Below are positions 971 through 10,005 of a DNA stretch of 18,595 bases, piece after piece. Within the stretch, counting starts at the first letter, position 1; every line of letters starts with the position of its first letter. Source of the stretch: a bacterium (GTDB lineage: Bacteria > Actinomycetota > Humimicrobiia > Humimicrobiales > Humimicrobiaceae); NCBI GenBank assembly GCA_030611285.1, contig JAUWQC010000003.1, forward strand, positions 1 to 18,595. The letters run 5' to 3'. Both the position numbers and the translations under genes were made by a program. The notes beneath the pieces were generated by a model, which worked only from the letters and a program-made list of their open reading frames with translations, was not told the DNA's origin and made no database searches.

Positions 971-2347
971 TTAAGAGTCATTCATATATTTCTTCAATAT
1001 TTTTTCTCCCCTTAATCTTAAGAATGTATCCAGGACTTCCTGATATCTTTCACATATTGGTTTGCTGTTGTCTTTGTAAATAAGGATAGAAGAATAAGCA
1101 CAGCCGCCCCCGCAAAGAGGAGCAAATTTACAGGTCCTGCATTTTTTAATATTAAGTATGGTTCTTTCTGTCCATAACTTTTTTTTATCAGGGTAGAATT
1201 CAAGTTTGGGACTGAATTTTCCAATAGCATAATCAGGATTTCCTATAGATTCCCCGCAGGCATATATATATCCGTCAGGGCAGAAGATATTAAGTTCCAA
1301 CAGGTTGCTCTCACAGTTAATAAATTTGGGAGAGACGTTCGGTGCACCTTTTACTAAATCTAGTATATGTCGTAATGGTTTGAACTTGTAAAAGCCAAAT
1401 GCATCTTCCACCGCTGGGTATTTATCATATACTTTAATCAATCTCTCCAGTAATTTTTCCTCGGGAATTATTATATTATCATAATCCAGGGTACTGTGAT
1501 CTGTAACCAGTGCCAGCATAATGTTAAAATCTGGATGTTTTATCCAGTTCTTCTTAGAAATATATTCATACAAATCAGGAAGATATTCTATATTGGTACT
1601 ATCAATATTTACCCTAACGTTAGTATGAATGTTATTTTTCAGAAGTAAATCTATGCTTTCAGATATTTTATCAAAACTTCCTTTGCCGGAAGGAAACTTT
1701 CTACGTTTGTTGTGGATTTCAGGAGGGCCATCAACGGTTATTTGAAGCATTCGTATTTTTTCTTTTACTGGTAGTAATATGTCAATGAAATCCTTAGCCA
1801 TTACCCCATTGGTGACTATGGTTATAAGGGCATCTTTTTCTTTGGCAAATTTAAGAATCTTTTTTACGAGAGGTTTGCTTTTTAAAAGTAAGGGTTCACC
1901 GCCAAATAATTCCACAGAGTCAACTTTACCGGATTTTTCTTTTGATATTTCTTCTGCAGCATTTATTGCATCATCCAAGATTTTAATGCTCATAAATTTA
2001 TTGGGATTGGAAGGCAGGTCCCTTTGAAAGCAGTAAATACATCTCAGGTTGCATTGGTAGGAAGGACAGAATACAAATCGCAGTAGTCCTGAGGATACTT
2101 TTTTTATATAGTTATTATAAAGCTCAACTAGTATTTCATCTTCTTTTTTTAAATCATAATAAAGGTAACCTCTCTCAATAAGATTTGAGAGAGGTTCAGT
2201 ATCAATGTTATTAAATTTTTTACCTTCAACTAAACTCCAGATATCATTTTCTATAATATCCAGCGCACCGGTTAAAGTATTATTTATAAGAGTATACCTG
2301 GAGTTTATTCTATGAGAGTAATTATAACCGCTTTGAAATAACTTCAT
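971..2347 (-). CDS. SPASM-domain radical SAM peptide maturase
   Basis: A 458-aa radical S-adenosylmethionine enzyme that probably modifies the 39-aa peptide encoded just upstream. The N-terminal ~85 residues resemble the small recognition domain found in front of many RiPP maturases; this assignment is an inference from position and composition. The radical SAM core begins at CPSYQCNLRCIYC, where Cys99, Cys103 and Cys106 form the CxxxCxxC [4Fe-4S] site. GGEP follows at 149-152 and VTNG at 178-181. A C-terminal SPASM domain carries Cys345, 356, 364, 403, 406, 412, 416 and 432 (CxxC, then CGGGC), enough for two auxiliary clusters. This architecture is shared with anaerobic sulfatase maturases and with peptide cyclases that make thioether or C-C crosslinks. 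No sulfatase is present, and a short Cys/Trp peptide gene sits 22 bases upstream, so peptide maturation is favoured. No ribosome binding site precedes the ATG, which suggests coupling to the upstream gene. The exact chemistry cannot be read from sequence. Confidence 0.92.
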   Translation of the reverse strand: MKLFQSGYNYSHRINSRYTLINNTLTGALDIIENDIWSLVEGKKFNNIDTEPLSNLIERGYLYYDLKKEDEILVELYNNYIKKVSSGLLRFVFCPSYQCNLRCIYCFQRDLPSNPNKFMSIKILDDAINAAEEISKEKSGKVDSVELFGGEPLLLKSKPLVKKILKFAKEKDALITIVTNGVMAKDFIDILLPVKEKIRMLQITVDGPPEIHNKRRKFPSGKGSFDKISESIDLLLKNNIHTNVRVNIDSTNIEYLPDLYEYISKKNWIKHPDFNIMLALVTDHSTLDYDNIIIPEEKLLERLIKVYDKYPAVEDAFGFYKFKPLRHILDLVKGAPNVSPKFINCESNLLELNIFCPDGYIYACGESIGNPDYAIGKFSPKLEFYPDKKKLWTERTILNIKKCRTCKFAPLCGGGCAYSSILIYKDNSKPICERYQEVLDTFLRLRGEKILKKYMNDS

Positions 2348-2369
2348 TTATAAATTACGAGTACAATTA

Positions 2370-2489
2370 TTATGACCAATTCCACCAGAAGCACCATACC
2401 CAGCAGCACATAGGACTAACGTCATCTTTTAGTCCTATCAGAGTTAAGTCCTTATTCCAGAGGTTTTTAGTCTTGTTAATAGATTTCAA
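2370..2489 (-). CDS. Putative Cys/Trp-rich RiPP precursor peptide (39 aa)
   Basis: A short gene with a TTG start at 2489, six bases after a perfect AGGAGG. It reads 39 codons to a TAA at 2370. The N-terminal part begins MKSINKTKNLWNKDLTLIGL and, with a following KDDVSP, looks like a soluble leader. The C-terminal part, residues 27-39, is MCCWVWCFWWNWS: three Cys (28, 29, 33) and five Trp (30, 32, 35, 36, 38) in thirteen residues. Such a lopsided composition in a peptide directly upstream of a SPASM radical-SAM gene, on the same strand and 22 bases away, is the usual layout of precursor plus maturase. An extended -10 promoter lies about 40 bases upstream. I do not recognise the core as a known RiPP family. 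No export gene or dedicated leader protease is adjacent, although an M56 peptidase lies upstream. Coding status is inferred from signals and context, not homology. Confidence 0.8.
   Translation of the reverse strand: MKSINKTKNLWNKDLTLIGLKDDVSPMCCWVWCFWWNWS
2410..2438. repeat. Perfect 10-bp inverted repeat inside the precursor gene
   Basis: Arms ATAGGACTAA (2410-2419) and TTAGTCCTAT (2429-2438) are exactly complementary around a 9-base loop. In the peptide gene the repeat covers the codons for the end of the leader, from about Leu17 to Met27, just before the Cys/Trp core. In mRNA it would fold into a stable hairpin. It could slow translation, protect the transcript or act as a protein-binding site; the sequence does not say which. 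Confidence 0.7.
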
Positions 2490-2494
2490 TTGAG

Positions 2495-2500
2495 GCCTCC
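2495..2500 (-). promoter_or_regulatory. Ribosome binding site of the precursor peptide gene
   Basis: Minus-strand AAGGAGGCCTCAATTG: a perfect AGGAGG (plus strand 2495-2500), with five bases (2490-2494) between it and the TTG codon at 2489. It fixes the start of the 39-codon gene and is among the strongest ribosome binding sites in the window. Confidence 0.75.
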
Positions 2501-2528
2501 TTTCTTAGAAGTTGTTTCTTCTTTTAGC

Positions 2529-2537
2529 ATTATACCA
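2529..2537 (-). promoter_or_regulatory. Extended -10 promoter of the precursor/radical-SAM pair
   Basis: Minus-strand TGGTATAAT is a consensus extended -10 (TGnTATAAT). No good -35 is found at the expected distance; the hexamer there is TTATTT, and extended -10 promoters often do without one. Predicted transcription would begin near 2522. That leaves a leader of about 33 bases containing the AGGAGG of the small peptide gene. Confidence 0.6.
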
Positions 2538-2589: not shown

Positions 2590-3654
2590 TTATCTTAAAA
2601 ATAAATAAAAATTATTTATTTTTATTACAAACATTATTTGAATTATTAGAAGTGTCAAAAATAGAATATACATCAGTATTTTAGGAAAGATACGGCTGTA
2701 AATCTTATCTGGATTAGTTTTAATAATCGAGTTAATCCTGTTTCTTAGTCTCACTTGACTGAATAAGCCATGAGGTGTGAATTGGAAGCTTTGTCCTGGT
2801 TGATAGGTGGGTTTTAAAGTTGAAATAGATCTTATTTTTAGAATAATATTAAGAATATTTTTAGCTATTTTTTTTACCGGTTTTCCAGTATATTTCACCA
2901 CGAGTTTATCGCTATCTTTATCCTGCTCAGTTCTAATTAATGAATATGCAATATAGGAAAAGGGATTAAAAAAGAGTAAGTCTCGTAATATCAATGCAAT
3001 CCAGCCAATAAGATTGTCATTTCTTTTAATATGTGATAATTCGTGTTGAATTAAAACCTCTTTTTCGTCAGTATTTAGCATATCTATTAATTTGGGAGAA
3101 AGAACCAGTGCAAAATTTTTAATTCCTATTATGAAAGGTGAGAAGTAATGCCTATGGGTCAAGCTTACGTAAGGAGCTTTTGTTTTTGTTTTTTGAGTAT
3201 AGTCATCTATAATGGTATAAATCTCAGGAATCTCTTTTCTACCAACTATATCTTCGTGTGCTAAATTTCTATAAAAGAGATAAAGAAGAACCCATCTTAC
3301 AACTAATATTGTGATTATACTAATTATTATTAATAATAGAACTAAATAGTTTATGTCAGAAAAGACTGCTGGACCTCTTTCAAATTCTTTAAACGTATTA
3401 ATAATATTATTTGGGTCAGGTAACCTAATTAAACCTATAATAGGATCTGATTGGGAATATGGTTTATCAATTTTTTCAGAAATAATTATAAACGGTTTTA
3501 TAAGTGGTAGGAAAAAAAATAAAATCCTGATATTCGAATCTTTTATCCTGAAAATAAATAAGAAGAATAGAACTAAAACCAGACTCACAAAACTATCATA
3601 AATAATTGGTAAAATATAATTTGTTAATATTTCTAATAAAACCATTAAATACAA
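2590..3654 (-). CDS. BlaR1-like M56 family membrane metallopeptidase without sensor domain
   Basis: A 354-aa integral membrane protein with a zinc-peptidase motif. Hydrophobic segments lie near residues 8-35, 43-58, 103-128, 215-240 and 326-348. The cytosolic peptidase part contains HELSH at 204-208 (His204, Glu205, His208); a downstream acidic stretch RTEQDKD at 241-247 could supply the third zinc ligand. In BlaR1/MecR1 systems such a peptidase responds to a signal and leads to cleavage of the BlaI repressor. Those proteins are about 580-600 aa and end in an extracellular penicillin-binding domain. Here the protein stops soon after the last membrane segment, so beta-lactam sensing is not supported. 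A BlaI-type gene lies upstream on the same strand, as expected for this pair. The first possible start is TTG at 3654; ATG at 3645 is an alternative, and neither has a clear ribosome binding site. Confidence 0.85.
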   Translation of the reverse strand: MYLMVLLEILTNYILPIIYDSFVSLVLVLFFLFIFRIKDSNIRILFFFLPLIKPFIIISEKIDKPYSQSDPIIGLIRLPDPNNIINTFKEFERGPAVFSDINYLVLLLIIISIITILVVRWVLLYLFYRNLAHEDIVGRKEIPEIYTIIDDYTQKTKTKAPYVSLTHRHYFSPFIIGIKNFALVLSPKLIDMLNTDEKEVLIQHELSHIKRNDNLIGWIALILRDLLFFNPFSYIAYSLIRTEQDKDSDKLVVKYTGKPVKKIAKNILNIILKIRSISTLKPTYQPGQSFQFTPHGLFSQVRLRNRINSIIKTNPDKIYSRIFPKILMYILFLTLLIIQIMFVIKINNFYLFLR

Positions 3655-3851
3655 ATTATATAGAATTTATTGCTATTGTATTACTAAAAAATAAAAAAAT
3701 TAGTATTATCTATCATACTGATATTAATCTAAGATTATAAAAAGTAAAAAAATTTTATCCCTTAAGATTTTTTATTATGATTTACCTCTAAGAAATTTCT
3801 TGAATCTTCCATAAAATATTAGGCTAGTTTATCCAAAATAGGAAAATCTTA
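3655..3851. other. AT-rich spacer between the BlaI-type and M56 genes
   Basis: A spacer of 197 bases made mostly of A and T, apart from the hairpin at its repressor-side end. I see no convincing open reading frame, strong promoter or operator. The length is larger than usual for a tightly coupled BlaI-M56 operon. Confidence 0.4.
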
Positions 3852-3868
3852 TTAAGATTTTCCTATTT
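3836..3868. terminator. 15-bp palindromic hairpin at the end of the BlaI-type gene
   Basis: Arms 3836-3850 and 3854-3868 (AAATAGGAAAATCTT and its complement) pair perfectly around a three-base loop. The repressor stop codon sits in the centre. Only a short T stretch follows on the minus strand, so it may act as a weak rho-independent terminator, an mRNA 3' stabiliser or a partial attenuator before the M56 gene. Confidence 0.5.
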
Positions 3869-4298
3869 CTTTTAATAATCTTTCTATGCCTTCTTTGGAA
3901 ATGTTTTTACTGTCAGATAAAAATTTGGAAACCATGCCACTTGTACTTTCCTCAAGCAATTTATCTGAAACTGATTTTATTATACTTTTTGAAAGTTCTT
4001 TTTTATCAACTGCTGCAGAATAAATATAGGTTTTTGCAGTTTTATTCTGCTTCAGAAGCCCTTTTTCTGCCAGGGTAGTCATTGTTGACATTACGGTTGT
4101 GTAAGGGATAAATCCATGATCCTTGCTTTCAATTTCCTTTCTTAGCATATCCTCATGTACTTCTCTTACTGTTACTTTGCCTTTTACCCATGCAATCTTC
4201 ATTATATCAGCTTCTAAATTGCTTATACTATTAAGGCCATTTATTCCAATTTCTCCTGATTTTTTCTTAATTTCACCAGTCTTTGTCGTCTTTATCAC
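3852..4298 (-). CDS. BlaI/MecI/CopY-family transcriptional repressor
   Basis: A 148-aa protein with the BlaI/MecI winged-helix pattern. The conserved domain starts at about residue 26 with SNLEADIMKIAWVKGKVTVREVHE and continues through TVMSTMTTLAEKGLL to a C-terminal dimerisation half rich in Ser, Lys and Leu. These proteins bind operators as dimers and are inactivated when a partner M56 protease is activated. The partner gene lies directly downstream here. The start chosen is GTG at 4298 within GGTAGGTGATAAAG. The 25 residues before the conserved domain are lysine-rich and not conserved in the family, so a later start is possible. I found no strong TACA...TGTA-type operator; a weak 6-bp repeat GTATTC...GAATAC lies upstream at about 4331-4357. 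The targets, perhaps including the precursor/maturase genes, are not known. Confidence 0.88.
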   Translation of the reverse strand: MIKTTKTGEIKKKSGEIGINGLNSISNLEADIMKIAWVKGKVTVREVHEDMLRKEIESKDHGFIPYTTVMSTMTTLAEKGLLKQNKTAKTYIYSAAVDKKELSKSIIKSVSDKLLEESTSGMVSKFLSDSKNISKEGIERLLKEIGKS

Positions 4299-4686
4299 CT
4301 ACCTTTCTTAAAAATTTTATCAATTAGCTAACTGTATTCTCTATTAAAAACGTGGAATACTTTATACTATTTTTAAGTAAAAATCAAATTATCTTATAAA
4401 CTTATATTACTGGACAATATTTGAATGATTACCTAATTTATTTTAACATAAAATACCAATAGATATGATATTAATATTAAATATTAATTTTTTATATTTT
4501 TTATTATAACATATTATAAATAGGAAATAAAGGCTTCCTTCAGGAAGATGATGATTAGATAAGTCTTTCTAAACTCTACAAAAATTAATATAATATTACG
4601 GATATTGTTTAAGAAAGCTCATTTATAAGAAAATTAGAGCAGACAAATAAAAATTTCTTAAATGGATTACAGGAGAAGAGTATATC
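4299..4686. other. 388-base intergenic region between divergent genes
   Basis: Very AT-rich spacer between the BlaI-type gene (minus) and the corrinoid-activator gene (plus). It must hold divergent promoters, but no clear -35/-10 pair stands out among the many A/T runs. A small hairpin, CTTCCT-TC-AGGAAG, lies at 4534-4547. I found no cobalamin riboswitch-like conserved blocks and no convincing short coding sequence on either strand. Confidence 0.4.
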
Positions 4687-6594
4687 ATGGAAAATGGAAA
4701 GATTAAAATAATTATTGAGCCTATAGGAAAAAGGATATTTCTGAACAAACCGGTATGTGGACTTAAAGCAATTATTGATGCCGGGTTGGGTATAAAATCA
4801 GTCTGCGCTGGAAAAGGAACCTGTGGCAAATGCAGAATAGTTATTTTAAATAAAGAAAAAAAGCCAGCTAACAAAAAAGAACAGGAAATATTAAGCCCTG
4901 ACGAGATTGATAATGGTGTTAGACTGGCGTGTCAGCAAATTTTCGATAGGAATCTCATTATATATATACCTTCATCATCATTGAGTGAGGAGCAGAAACT
5001 TCAGGTTAAGGGCGAGGAGAAGATTATTGAAGTAGATCCTGTCTGCAATAAATATTTTGTAAAATTAAAAGAGGCTGATCTCGGAGATTTAGAATCTGAT
5101 TTTAGTAGAATCAAAAGTTTTCTTAAGAATAAATATAACCTGAAGGTTAATTCAATTGATTACAGGTCACTGGTTGAAATGCCTTCTATTATCAGGAATA
5201 ACTCATGGGAAATTACGGTTACAGTAAGAAATGATGAGATTATTCTGATTGAAGGAAAGGATAGGACAAAAAATAATTTTGGTCTGGCCATTGATCTGGG
5301 AACAACAAAAATTGCTTTTCTGCTTGTCGATTTGGTGACTGGAAAAACAATTGACAGCAAAGGAGTTATGAATCCCCAGGTTAGTTATGGGGAAGATGTA
5401 ATGAGCCGCTTAAATTTTGCTATGCAGAGCCAGGATAATGCAAATAAGATTCAGAAGGTAGTAGCAACTAAAATAAATGAAGCAGTAAGTGAACTTTGCA
5501 GGAAAAATAATTTAACGCATAAAGAAATAACCGAGATGACTGTTGTTGGCAACACTGCTATGCATCACCTGCTGCTGGGATTGCCTGTGAATCAGCTGGG
5601 GTTGTCTCCATTTGTTTCGTTGACTAATGACTCTTTACAAATTAAAGCCAGAGAAATTGGAATTAAAATTGCGCCCGGCGGATATATTTTTTTACCGCCT
5701 CCAATAGCAGGATTTGTAGGATCTGACCATTTAGCTGTGATCCTGGCCACAGAAATACATAAAAAGAAAGGTAACTACCTGGGTATTGATATCGGAACCA
5801 ATACTGAAATTGTATTAAAAAGCGGAAAGAAAATCACCAGTGTTTCTACTGCATCAGGTCCAGCATTTGAAGGAGCACATGTCAAATATGGTATGAGAGC
5901 AGCGCCGGGCGCCATAGAGAGAGTATTAATTGATTCTAAGACTCATATACCGTCTGTCCAGACCATTAATGATATAAAGCCTGTCGGTATTTGCGGTTCC
6001 GGGATTTTAGACGCAATAGCAGAACTGTTAAAGGCTGGCATAATAAACAGGAACGGCAAATTTAAAACTGATTTGGATTGTGTGCGCAGAGATAGCAAAG
6101 GAGAGTTTAGCTATATACTGGCGCCTTCAGGTGATGATAACAGGAGAAGAGAAAATAGTAATGTCCTGGAGAATGGTAAGTGTTTTACTAAGCGGTGTGG
6201 AGAAAAAGATATTTCAATAAACCAAAAAGACATTGTAGAAATTCAACTGGCAAAAGGGGCAATAAGAGCTGGTATTGAAGTATTACTTGAACATGCAGAT
6301 ATAAGCTTTAAAGATATAGACAGAATAATAGTTGCAGGCGCTTTTGGATCTTATATAGACCCTAAAAATGTTATTAATATTGGTATGTTCCCCAATGTTC
6401 AGTTAAGGAAAATCAGGCAGGTCGGCAATGCCGCAGGGGTTGGAGCAAAGATGATTTTAATTTCTAAAAAGCAGAGGGCAAATGCTGAAAAAATAGCTAA
6501 AAAAATTGGATATCTTGAACTGGCTGTATTTCCCAGTTTTAATAATCATTTCATAAACAGTATGCAGTTCCCCGCGCCTGATGAAATAATTTAA
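4687..6594 (+). CDS. [2Fe-2S]/ASKHA corrinoid activation protein (RACo-type, DUF4445)
   Basis: A 635-aa reductive activator of the family that returns oxidised corrinoid proteins from Co(II) to Co(I), coupled to ATP hydrolysis. An N-terminal plant-type [2Fe-2S] domain shows Cys40, Cys46, Cys49 and Cys82 (SVCAGKGTCGKC ... LACQ). A linker domain extends to about residue 195. The C-terminal ASKHA-fold ATPase has phosphate-binding motifs AIDLGTTK near 201-208 and GIDIGTNTE near 365, and ends with the block IVAGAFGSYIDP. Length and domain order match RACo. The ATG at 4687 follows AGGAGA by about ten bases. In acetogens and methyl-degrading anaerobes the gene usually neighbours methyltransferase and corrinoid-protein genes. 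None is present in this window, so the substrate is unknown. Confidence 0.9.
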   Translation: MENGKIKIIIEPIGKRIFLNKPVCGLKAIIDAGLGIKSVCAGKGTCGKCRIVILNKEKKPANKKEQEILSPDEIDNGVRLACQQIFDRNLIIYIPSSSLSEEQKLQVKGEEKIIEVDPVCNKYFVKLKEADLGDLESDFSRIKSFLKNKYNLKVNSIDYRSLVEMPSIIRNNSWEITVTVRNDEIILIEGKDRTKNNFGLAIDLGTTKIAFLLVDLVTGKTIDSKGVMNPQVSYGEDVMSRLNFAMQSQDNANKIQKVVATKINEAVSELCRKNNLTHKEITEMTVVGNTAMHHLLLGLPVNQLGLSPFVSLTNDSLQIKAREIGIKIAPGGYIFLPPPIAGFVGSDHLAVILATEIHKKKGNYLGIDIGTNTEIVLKSGKKITSVSTASGPAFEGAHVKYGMRAAPGAIERVLIDSKTHIPSVQTINDIKPVGICGSGILDAIAELLKAGIINRNGKFKTDLDCVRRDSKGEFSYILAPSGDDNRRRENSNVLENGKCFTKRCGEKDISINQKDIVEIQLAKGAIRAGIEVLLEHADISFKDIDRIIVAGAFGSYIDPKNVINIGMFPNVQLRKIRQVGNAAGVGAKMILISKKQRANAEKIAKKIGYLELAVFPSFNNHFINSMQFPAPDEII

Positions 6595-6793: not shown

Positions 6794-7603
6794 ATGTTTT
6801 TAAATTTTACACAAAAAAAGAAAAAAGTTCTTTTATTTTTTATAAATATATTTATATGTGTTGCCATCATTTTATTAGTGTCTCCTTTAGTCAGCTGCGG
6901 AGCTTCTGGTACAGTTGATGAGATGAAGATTGCCGCTGATAGTAAAAAACTTATGGTCGGAAGTGATACTACTTATAAGCCTTTTGAATTTAAAGAAGAT
7001 GGAAATGTTGAAGGTTTCGATATAGATATTGCCAGAGAAATAGCAAAAAGAATGGATAAAGAGATAGAGATAATACCTATTACGTGGGACAGCACTTACC
7101 AGATTCCAGAAGATTTAAAGTTAGATATGATAATTTCAGCTGTTCCAATAACTGATGAAAAAGAAAATATGGTTGATTTTTCCAGTCCTTATTTTGTAAT
7201 GGAATATATGTTGGTTACTTTAAGCGAAACTGATATTAAAATTAAGGAAGATTTAAATGGTAAGGTTATTGGAATTTTAAAAACCGAAAAAAATTGTCTA
7301 AGCGAAGATTATTTGCTTAATTATAAAATTGAAAGTTATGATGATATTTTGACAATGTTCGATAACCTTGGAAACAAAAATGTTGATGGGGTCTTAATCT
7401 CGCTGCCTATCGGCGTTAATATGCTGCTTGAAAATAAAGGAATTTATATTGTACTGGAAGTTGTAAAATCTAATAAAGAATTTGGCATTGTATTCAGTAA
7501 AGGAAGTGCTTTAAAGGAAGAAGTTAATAGAATCTTAGAAGAAATTAAAGAAGACGGCACTTATGATGATATTTACAATAAGTGGTTTAATTATAACTTT
7601 TAA
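6794..7603 (+). CDS. Substrate-binding lipoprotein, amino-acid ABC transporter type (SBP_bac_3)
   Basis: A 269-aa extracellular binding protein. The signal peptide has a Lys-rich n-region (KKKK at 8-11), a hydrophobic stretch at about 12-30 and a lipobox LVSC ending at Cys35, so it is a predicted membrane-anchored lipoprotein. The mature part follows the periplasmic binding protein family 3 pattern: LMVGSDTTYKPFEFKEDGNV, then GFDIDIAREIAKRM, DMIISAVPITDEK, and a C-terminal GTYDDIYNKWF. Family members bind polar amino acids or similar small ligands and hand them to an ABC permease. No permease or ATPase gene is adjacent; the next gene is a rhodanese remnant. It may work with a distant transporter or as a sensor ligand-binder. 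The ATG has no strong ribosome binding site. Confidence 0.9.
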   Translation: MFLNFTQKKKKVLLFFINIFICVAIILLVSPLVSCGASGTVDEMKIAADSKKLMVGSDTTYKPFEFKEDGNVEGFDIDIAREIAKRMDKEIEIIPITWDSTYQIPEDLKLDMIISAVPITDEKENMVDFSSPYFVMEYMLVTLSETDIKIKEDLNGKVIGILKTEKNCLSEDYLLNYKIESYDDILTMFDNLGNKNVDGVLISLPIGVNMLLENKGIYIVLEVVKSNKEFGIVFSKGSALKEEVNRILEEIKEDGTYDDIYNKWFNYNF

Positions 7604-7663
7604 GCGCCAGGCTATTTTTTTTATTTTTCTAAAATAAAACAATTTTTGCATTCAATTGCTGGT

Positions 7664-10005
<2,342 letters not shown>

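Follow-up and report, generated by a model that had tools for sequence, protein, structure and literature searches.

The 18,595-nucleotide stretch of the Humimicrobiaceae contig JAUWQC010000003.1 (assembly GCA_030611285.1) analysed here, hereafter the window, carries a gene cassette belonging to an apparently undescribed family of ribosomally synthesized and post-translationally modified peptides (RiPPs). A BlaI-like repressor, an M56-family membrane metalloprotease, a 39-codon precursor peptide and a radical S-adenosylmethionine (SAM)/SPASM maturase follow one another in that order, all on the minus strand, such that a short conserved precursor with leader and core lies directly beside a modifying enzyme. 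A preliminary description of this DNA had paired precursor and maturase as a minimal locus. The pairing has stood up, since the precursor frame is conserved and each of its 31 strong copies adjoins a maturase gene and/or an M56 gene, but the locus is not minimal, because M56 and usually the BlaI-like repressor are part of it. From these genes we infer how the leader is recognised, which bonds are made and what the protease and repressor do, and with them the biological role of the family. An RRE-like (RiPP recognition element) N-terminal domain of the maturase would recognise the leader motif N....LW, and the enzyme would oxidatively crosslink CC[W/F]..C.., the core at the C-terminal end, most likely through thioethers joining Cys thiols to carbons of nearby hydrophobic or aromatic residues. 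The membrane protease would remove the leader and may aid product release, while the BlaI-like repressor, where present, would control expression, with the same protease possibly relieving repression. We put the probability of this reading—a RiPP family with a leader-recognising and mainly thioether-forming maturase, leader removal by M56 and control by BlaI—at roughly 0.72.

The precursor gene (2370..2489, minus strand) begins with TTG and encodes a 27-residue leader (M..NKTKNLWN..; 2409..2489) followed by the core CCWVWCFWWNWS (2373..2408), the putative site of modification. Its final 13 residues, MCCWVWCFWWNWS, hold three Cys and five Trp, and 22 nt separate its stop codon from the ATG of the 458-residue radical SAM open reading frame (ORF). 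On the same strand, a Shine-Dalgarno sequence, AGGAGG (2496..2501), lies 6 nt upstream of the TTG, and an extended -10 promoter element, TGGTATAAT (2529..2537), also precedes the gene; all of these features had been described before and are confirmed by our reading of the sequence. Most of the relatives shown have a similar Shine-Dalgarno sequence, which is weak in L033. TGnTATAAT recurs in five of seven aligned relatives (L039 lacks it, and L043 has TATAAT without the TG), a conservation that supports the -10 assignment. A generic sigma-70 promoter scan returned nothing at the TGGTATAAT site because it requires a -35 hexamer, and its total of 20 is at the level of shuffled sequence (mean 22.5).

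The precursor frame is under purifying selection. It is open in all nine loci of the window's family, the window included, while both other frames have stops; pairwise differences at codon positions 1, 2 and 3 number 359, 242 and 616 across these loci, so that the third position dominates, and the ratio of nonsynonymous to synonymous rates (dN/dS) is finite in 16 of 36 pairs (0.03–0.52) and saturated in the other 20. An overlapping RiPP-like frame of the window, CAAGYGASGGIGHNN (MTLVLCAAGYGASGGIGHNN...), was rejected as the gene because stops interrupt it in relatives. Ten members of the precursor family gave no match to NCBIfam at E values up to 10, in a search whose HMMER filters remove most weak hits, and the window precursor gave none to Pfam at E 0.001; the earlier remark that the peptide fits no known precursor family thus holds for the models tested.

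What the family preserves is a small set of residues. In an alignment of 33 precursors (L034 numbering), W11 of the leader is invariant, as are Cys 28, 29 and 33, with M1, N5 and L10 almost invariant; this alignment omits P0123, P0125, P0128, P0130 and L053, which are identical or near-identical to kept rows, and L067, which is cut by a contig end. A tabulation of 39 precursors adds G257, G322, G391, G372, P0133 and P0134 and omits P0132, a longer-start version of the L070 peptide. The family constants are a leader Trp, usually as LW, together with the core pattern CC[W/F]-x(2-4)-C. The leader had been expected to vary; its N....LW motif, the probable recognition site of the maturase, is instead well conserved. 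Among the 39 tabulated precursors, 35 have W and 4 have F right after CC, and the third Cys comes after a gap of three residues in 20, four in 12 and five in 7. The position after this third Cys is freer (W 26, C 4, F 3, I 3, L 2, Y 1). Counted from CC onward, three Cys are present in 35 precursors, four in 3 and five in 1. In a third clade with the cassette (G257, G322, G391), the core reads CCW...CCWYW and is followed by a C-terminal tail.

Linkage between peptide and maturase was assessed from both sides. A maturase search found some match in 43 of 61 genomes, those below ~36% identity being taken as other SPASM proteins; among the 35 genomes of the window's family it gave 12 orthologue-grade loci, weaker matches in this family (~30% identity) being set aside in the same way, and 9 of the 12, the window included, have a 38–40-residue peptide at the same position. 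The precursor-maturase gap in these nine is 197 nt in G002 versus 1–25 nt elsewhere. Four of the 12 loci are incomplete: G012 is cut at the 3′ end of the maturase, and G003, G004 and G027, which are the three without a peptide, lack the 5′ part; the precursor profile finds no copy elsewhere in these three genomes. In a second class, represented by 36 genomes, 18 genomes have maturase loci (E <= 1e-30), 20 in all, and a precursor shares the contig at 18 of these loci. The two misses, in G223 and on contig 57 of G299, sit at contig ends; the latter also has an internal stop, and in G223 an M56 gene and a truncated precursor lie at the end of another contig. Taking the window's family and the second class together, the precursor is present at 27 of 32 orthologous maturase loci, and all five misses are contig edges or maturases without a 5′ part. 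The Cys/Trp tail that the preliminary description predicted for relatives is thus found where it was expected. The observations that it named as fatal, maturase loci consistently without a peptide and a frame without coding conservation, did not materialise, given these 27 loci and the preponderance of third-position changes.

Starting from the peptide, a profile of ten precursors (A1) matches 17 of the 396 genomes searched in the phylum, one of 16 precursors (A4) matches 14 of the 36 genomes of the second class, and one of 33 precursors (A6) matches 32 of the 396 at E <= 0.01. The 31 strong copies, all adjoining a maturase and/or M56 gene, are the A6 matches at E <= 1e-6 and fall in 30 of the 396 genomes; several uncultivated groups of the phylum share the cassette. 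Searched against 5.8 billion database proteins, the maturase profile retrieves 190 proteins at E <= 1e-60 (7993 candidates scored), and precursor profiles retrieve 11 and 8, five of them common to both. Among the best 120 of the 190 maturase relatives, those with names are Actinomycetota/Actinobacteria, Candidatus Humimicrobiaceae, Hydromicrobium and Aquicultor, the others being labelled ‘bacterium’ or metagenome.

The maturase (971..2347, minus strand, 458 residues) comprises three parts: an N-terminal domain of about residues 1–85 (2093..2347), predicted from a structure model and alignment to be RRE-like, with three strands and then helices; a radical SAM core with the cluster motif CNLRCIYC (PF04055, residues 95–263; 1559..2065); and a SPASM auxiliary-cluster region, CxxCxxxxxCxxxC, recognised by its invariant Cys columns (1052..1315). 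The protein therefore has both the CxxxCxxC motif and the auxiliary-cluster Cys of a SPASM maturase. CxxxCxxC occurs in 30 of 30 scanned maturase ORFs, the window's among them, and the SPASM motif in 27; L043 and L093 stop at the end of the sequence, and L115 shows no motif. The structure model is of high confidence (predicted local distance difference test, pLDDT, 92.6), with a strand-strand-strand-helix N-terminus that is included in the alignments to CteB (5wgg) and TigE (8vpo); this part has no further Pfam match. CteB is both the best PDB sequence match and, among the structures listed by the search, the top structural match, ChlB tying with it in Z and the CteB alignment also covering the N-terminus. 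Against NCBIfam, the window maturase falls far under the cut-off of every model listed (25 of 68 matched), including the equivalog cut-offs for CefB, Clo7bot, ryptide, PapB and DynA, which were seen for the window protein only; the other eight A2 maturases match the same models. A role in defence was also considered and rejected: for the maturase, PADLOC matched nothing but viperin (pVip) models, the best at 58 bits and over part of the radical SAM domain, and for M56 and BlaI it gave no match.

Known systems resemble the cassette in part. CteB belongs with CteA to what we take to be the SCIFF, or ranthipeptide, system (PDB 5WGG, 5WHY), and reportedly has an RRE. Like SCIFF, the window family combines a short precursor, a SPASM enzyme with an RRE (here predicted) and a Cys-containing core. 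Unlike SCIFF, with six Cys in ~45 residues, 35 of 39 cores have three Cys; the maturase scores 97 bits against a TIGR03974 cut-off of 425, and the window cassette has M56 and BlaI partners. CefB (NF038107) and Clo7bot (TIGR04334) are the best-scoring NCBIfam models and match the maturase almost from end to end, but the scores are 178 versus 600 and 140 versus 600 bits, and the core pattern CC..C differs from the Cys-every-fifth arrangement given in the CefB model name. PapB, reported (PMC9413430) to be a SPASM ranthipeptide maturase making Cys-to-Asp/Glu thioethers, offers another precedent: Asp or Glu directly precedes the third Cys in P0131, P0133 and P0134. The other 36 tabulated cores have neither residue there, and the maturase reaches only 117 of the 340 bits required by the PapB model (NF047865).

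The likely chemistry is suggested by what the cores can do without. Since the L062 core, CCFYLCL, has three Cys and is the sole core of the 39 with zero Trp, the constant chemistry must involve Cys; judged from these sequences, Cys rather than Trp must be the constant chemical handle. Thioether crosslinks are our best guess, while the Trp-Trp links that the preliminary description entertained are unlikely as a general modification: the L062 core could not form them, and the three Cys are kept in 39 of 39 precursors. A broader alternative, in which the maturase makes carbon-carbon or ether crosslinks to Trp (cyclophanes, as in streptide or darobactin) and Cys is used for disulfides or metal binding, draws on the aromatic content of the cores (19–56% W+F+Y), on W or F after CC in every tabulated precursor and on sub-cut-off similarity of the maturase to the DynA, YhhB and GrrM/OscB models. 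We nonetheless consider it unlikely, given the Trp-free core, a further eight cores with two Trp only, the invariance of the three Cys and the distance from CC to the third Cys, which is not fixed but ranges over three to five residues. Improbable, too, is a peptide that acts as a Cys-thiolate ligand for a metal such as copper or iron, with maturation a minor trimming or redox step. Three invariant Cys would suit such a ligand, and the repressor's best NCBIfam match is CopY/TcrY (55 bits versus a cut-off of 122), but there is no metal transporter among the four cassette genes (flanking ORFs unannotated), and the presence of a dedicated SPASM enzyme points to a core altered by radical chemistry. 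Carrying the thioether reading further, the core may be polycyclic, with all three Cys sulfurs bonded to aromatic (Trp/Phe) carbons in a pattern unmatched in the tested families, and M56 may serve both as leader peptidase and as BlaI-relieving sensor in a self-regulating circuit of peptide, protease and repressor; this we offer as a rather doubtful elaboration.

The M56 gene (2590..3654, minus strand; PF05569) encodes a BlaR1-like protein of 354 residues from the TTG at 3654, relatives aligning to an ATG at 3645. Its HELSH motif (3031..3045, minus strand) is an HExxH that is conserved in relatives, being present in every scanned M56 ORF except the N-terminal piece of the split L065 gene (G317, 330–1435), where two overlapping pieces reflect a frameshift or sequencing error. 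Next to it lies the 148-residue BlaI/CopY-type repressor (3852..4298, minus strand; Penicillinase_R, PF03965). We counted 32 distinct systems, L067 and L096 being one, and M56 is immediately upstream of the precursor in 30; of the remaining two, G341 (contig 96) has it at the far side of the maturase, and G002 runs out of contig before reaching it. A BlaI gene is adjacent in 22 of the 32 systems; among the ten without one, L038, L115 and L116 are on contigs that stop too soon to show it. The order BlaI-M56-precursor-maturase is found again amid different flanking genes. Four genomes (G290, G308, G299 and G184) have a divergent maturase yet keep the precursor behind M56. No BlaI gene accompanies the cassette in G034, G024, G308, G299 and G184; G308 (87% complete) has zero PF03965 matches genome-wide, and the other four have a BlaI gene on another contig.

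This gene order speaks against the idea that the short ORF is a Trp-rich attenuator leader peptide, sensing charged tRNA and controlling the maturase in cis without being its substrate. A short Trp-rich ORF just 5′ of a gene is indeed what most loci present, but in the four genomes with a divergent maturase the ORF lies downstream of M56, on which ground we rejected the idea. The N-terminal half of the peptide is also conserved at the protein level, no tryptophan gene is among the four cassette genes, and no RNA family was matched within the window (Rfam, gathering scores). We give attenuation almost no credence. The window has no tRNA genes.

That M56 is retained in cassettes lacking BlaI or carrying an inverted maturase gene leads us to infer that the protease processes the peptide; from these gene arrangements, regulation through BlaI would be an added or alternative role. 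A credible competitor, to which we assign rather less than even odds, is that M56 and BlaI form a sensor pair of the BlaR1/BlaI type that is purely regulatory, an unlinked housekeeping protease removing the leader. BlaI adjoins M56 in most systems, M56 aligns to BlaR1 (8exs/8exp) over residues 7–328 of 602, and the BlaI genes on other contigs could partner M56 in G034, G024, G299 and G184. Set against this, M56 stays linked where the cassette has no BlaI, including G308 with none in its genome, and the protein stops before the beta-lactam sensor region of BlaR1, matching only peptidase types (M56, M48, phage metallopeptidase). A search for BlaI operators found a TACA..TGTA-type dyad once only, upstream of M56 in L043.

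Several points weigh against the RiPP reading with thioethers and a processing M56. The four cassette genes, the ORFs flanking them being unannotated, include no known type of exporter or immunity protein. Acceptor residues for thioethers are not evident, the core constants being Cys and the W/F after CC only. M56 could have its role in regulation instead of processing, and its structure model is poor (pLDDT 66.9) and was not used. Two weak A6 matches, in G243 and G385 (E 0.005–0.009, context unchecked), are regarded as chance.

Membrane metalloproteases are not foreign to RiPPs. For instance, the epipeptide EpeX has EpeP, an M50 enzyme that a review of leader proteases (PMC10885120) describes as thought to cleave and export it; the window cassette has M56 in place of M50. 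As in BlaR1/BlaI, the M56 domain adjoins a Penicillinase_R repressor, but here it has no beta-lactam sensor domain and is genetically linked to the genes for a RiPP precursor and its maturase. In the open-access literature we found no paper pairing M56 with a radical SAM RiPP, although a description in the subscription literature is possible; PMC6807378 places M56 and radical SAM in different elements. The cassette brings in a radical SAM RiPP family, apparently unnamed, of Humimicrobiaceae- and Aquicultor-type Actinomycetota (the names of database relatives) and a third group. With a tiny core that consists almost entirely of Cys and aromatic or hydrophobic residues, the family makes a compact model for testing what decides between thioether and aromatic chemistry in SPASM enzymes. 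If our reading is true, BlaR1-like M56 proteases become tied to peptide maturation and, as M56 and BlaR1 are absent from the main text of PMC10885120, this suggests a function for sensor-less M56 proteins.

Individual loci show further variations. At L036 (G003) the M56-maturase stretch is shortened and lacks both the precursor and the maturase start, apparently through decay or a fault of assembly. The gap of ~197 nt between precursor and maturase at L038 (G002; 313–509) holds short palindromes (CCACG..ACTAAAGT..CGTGG) resembling a repeat element. A second, divergent BlaI-M56 pair adjoins the cassette at L095 (G261; 7320–8439), and a second BlaI-like gene follows the maturase at L041 (G057; 7756–8136).

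In the window itself, a 15-pair hairpin with a T-rich tail (3836–3868) overlaps the BlaI stop codon; its stem differs in L032–L034 yet pairs, by eye, suggesting a possible conserved terminator between the BlaI and M56 genes. Divergent to the cassette lies a gene for a RACo-type reductive activator of corrinoid proteins (4687–6594) with Fer2, RACo linker, middle and C-terminal domains. Between it and the BlaI-like gene is an AT-rich palindrome, TTAATATT-A-AATATTAA (4471–4487), which is longer in L034 and has one mismatch in L032.
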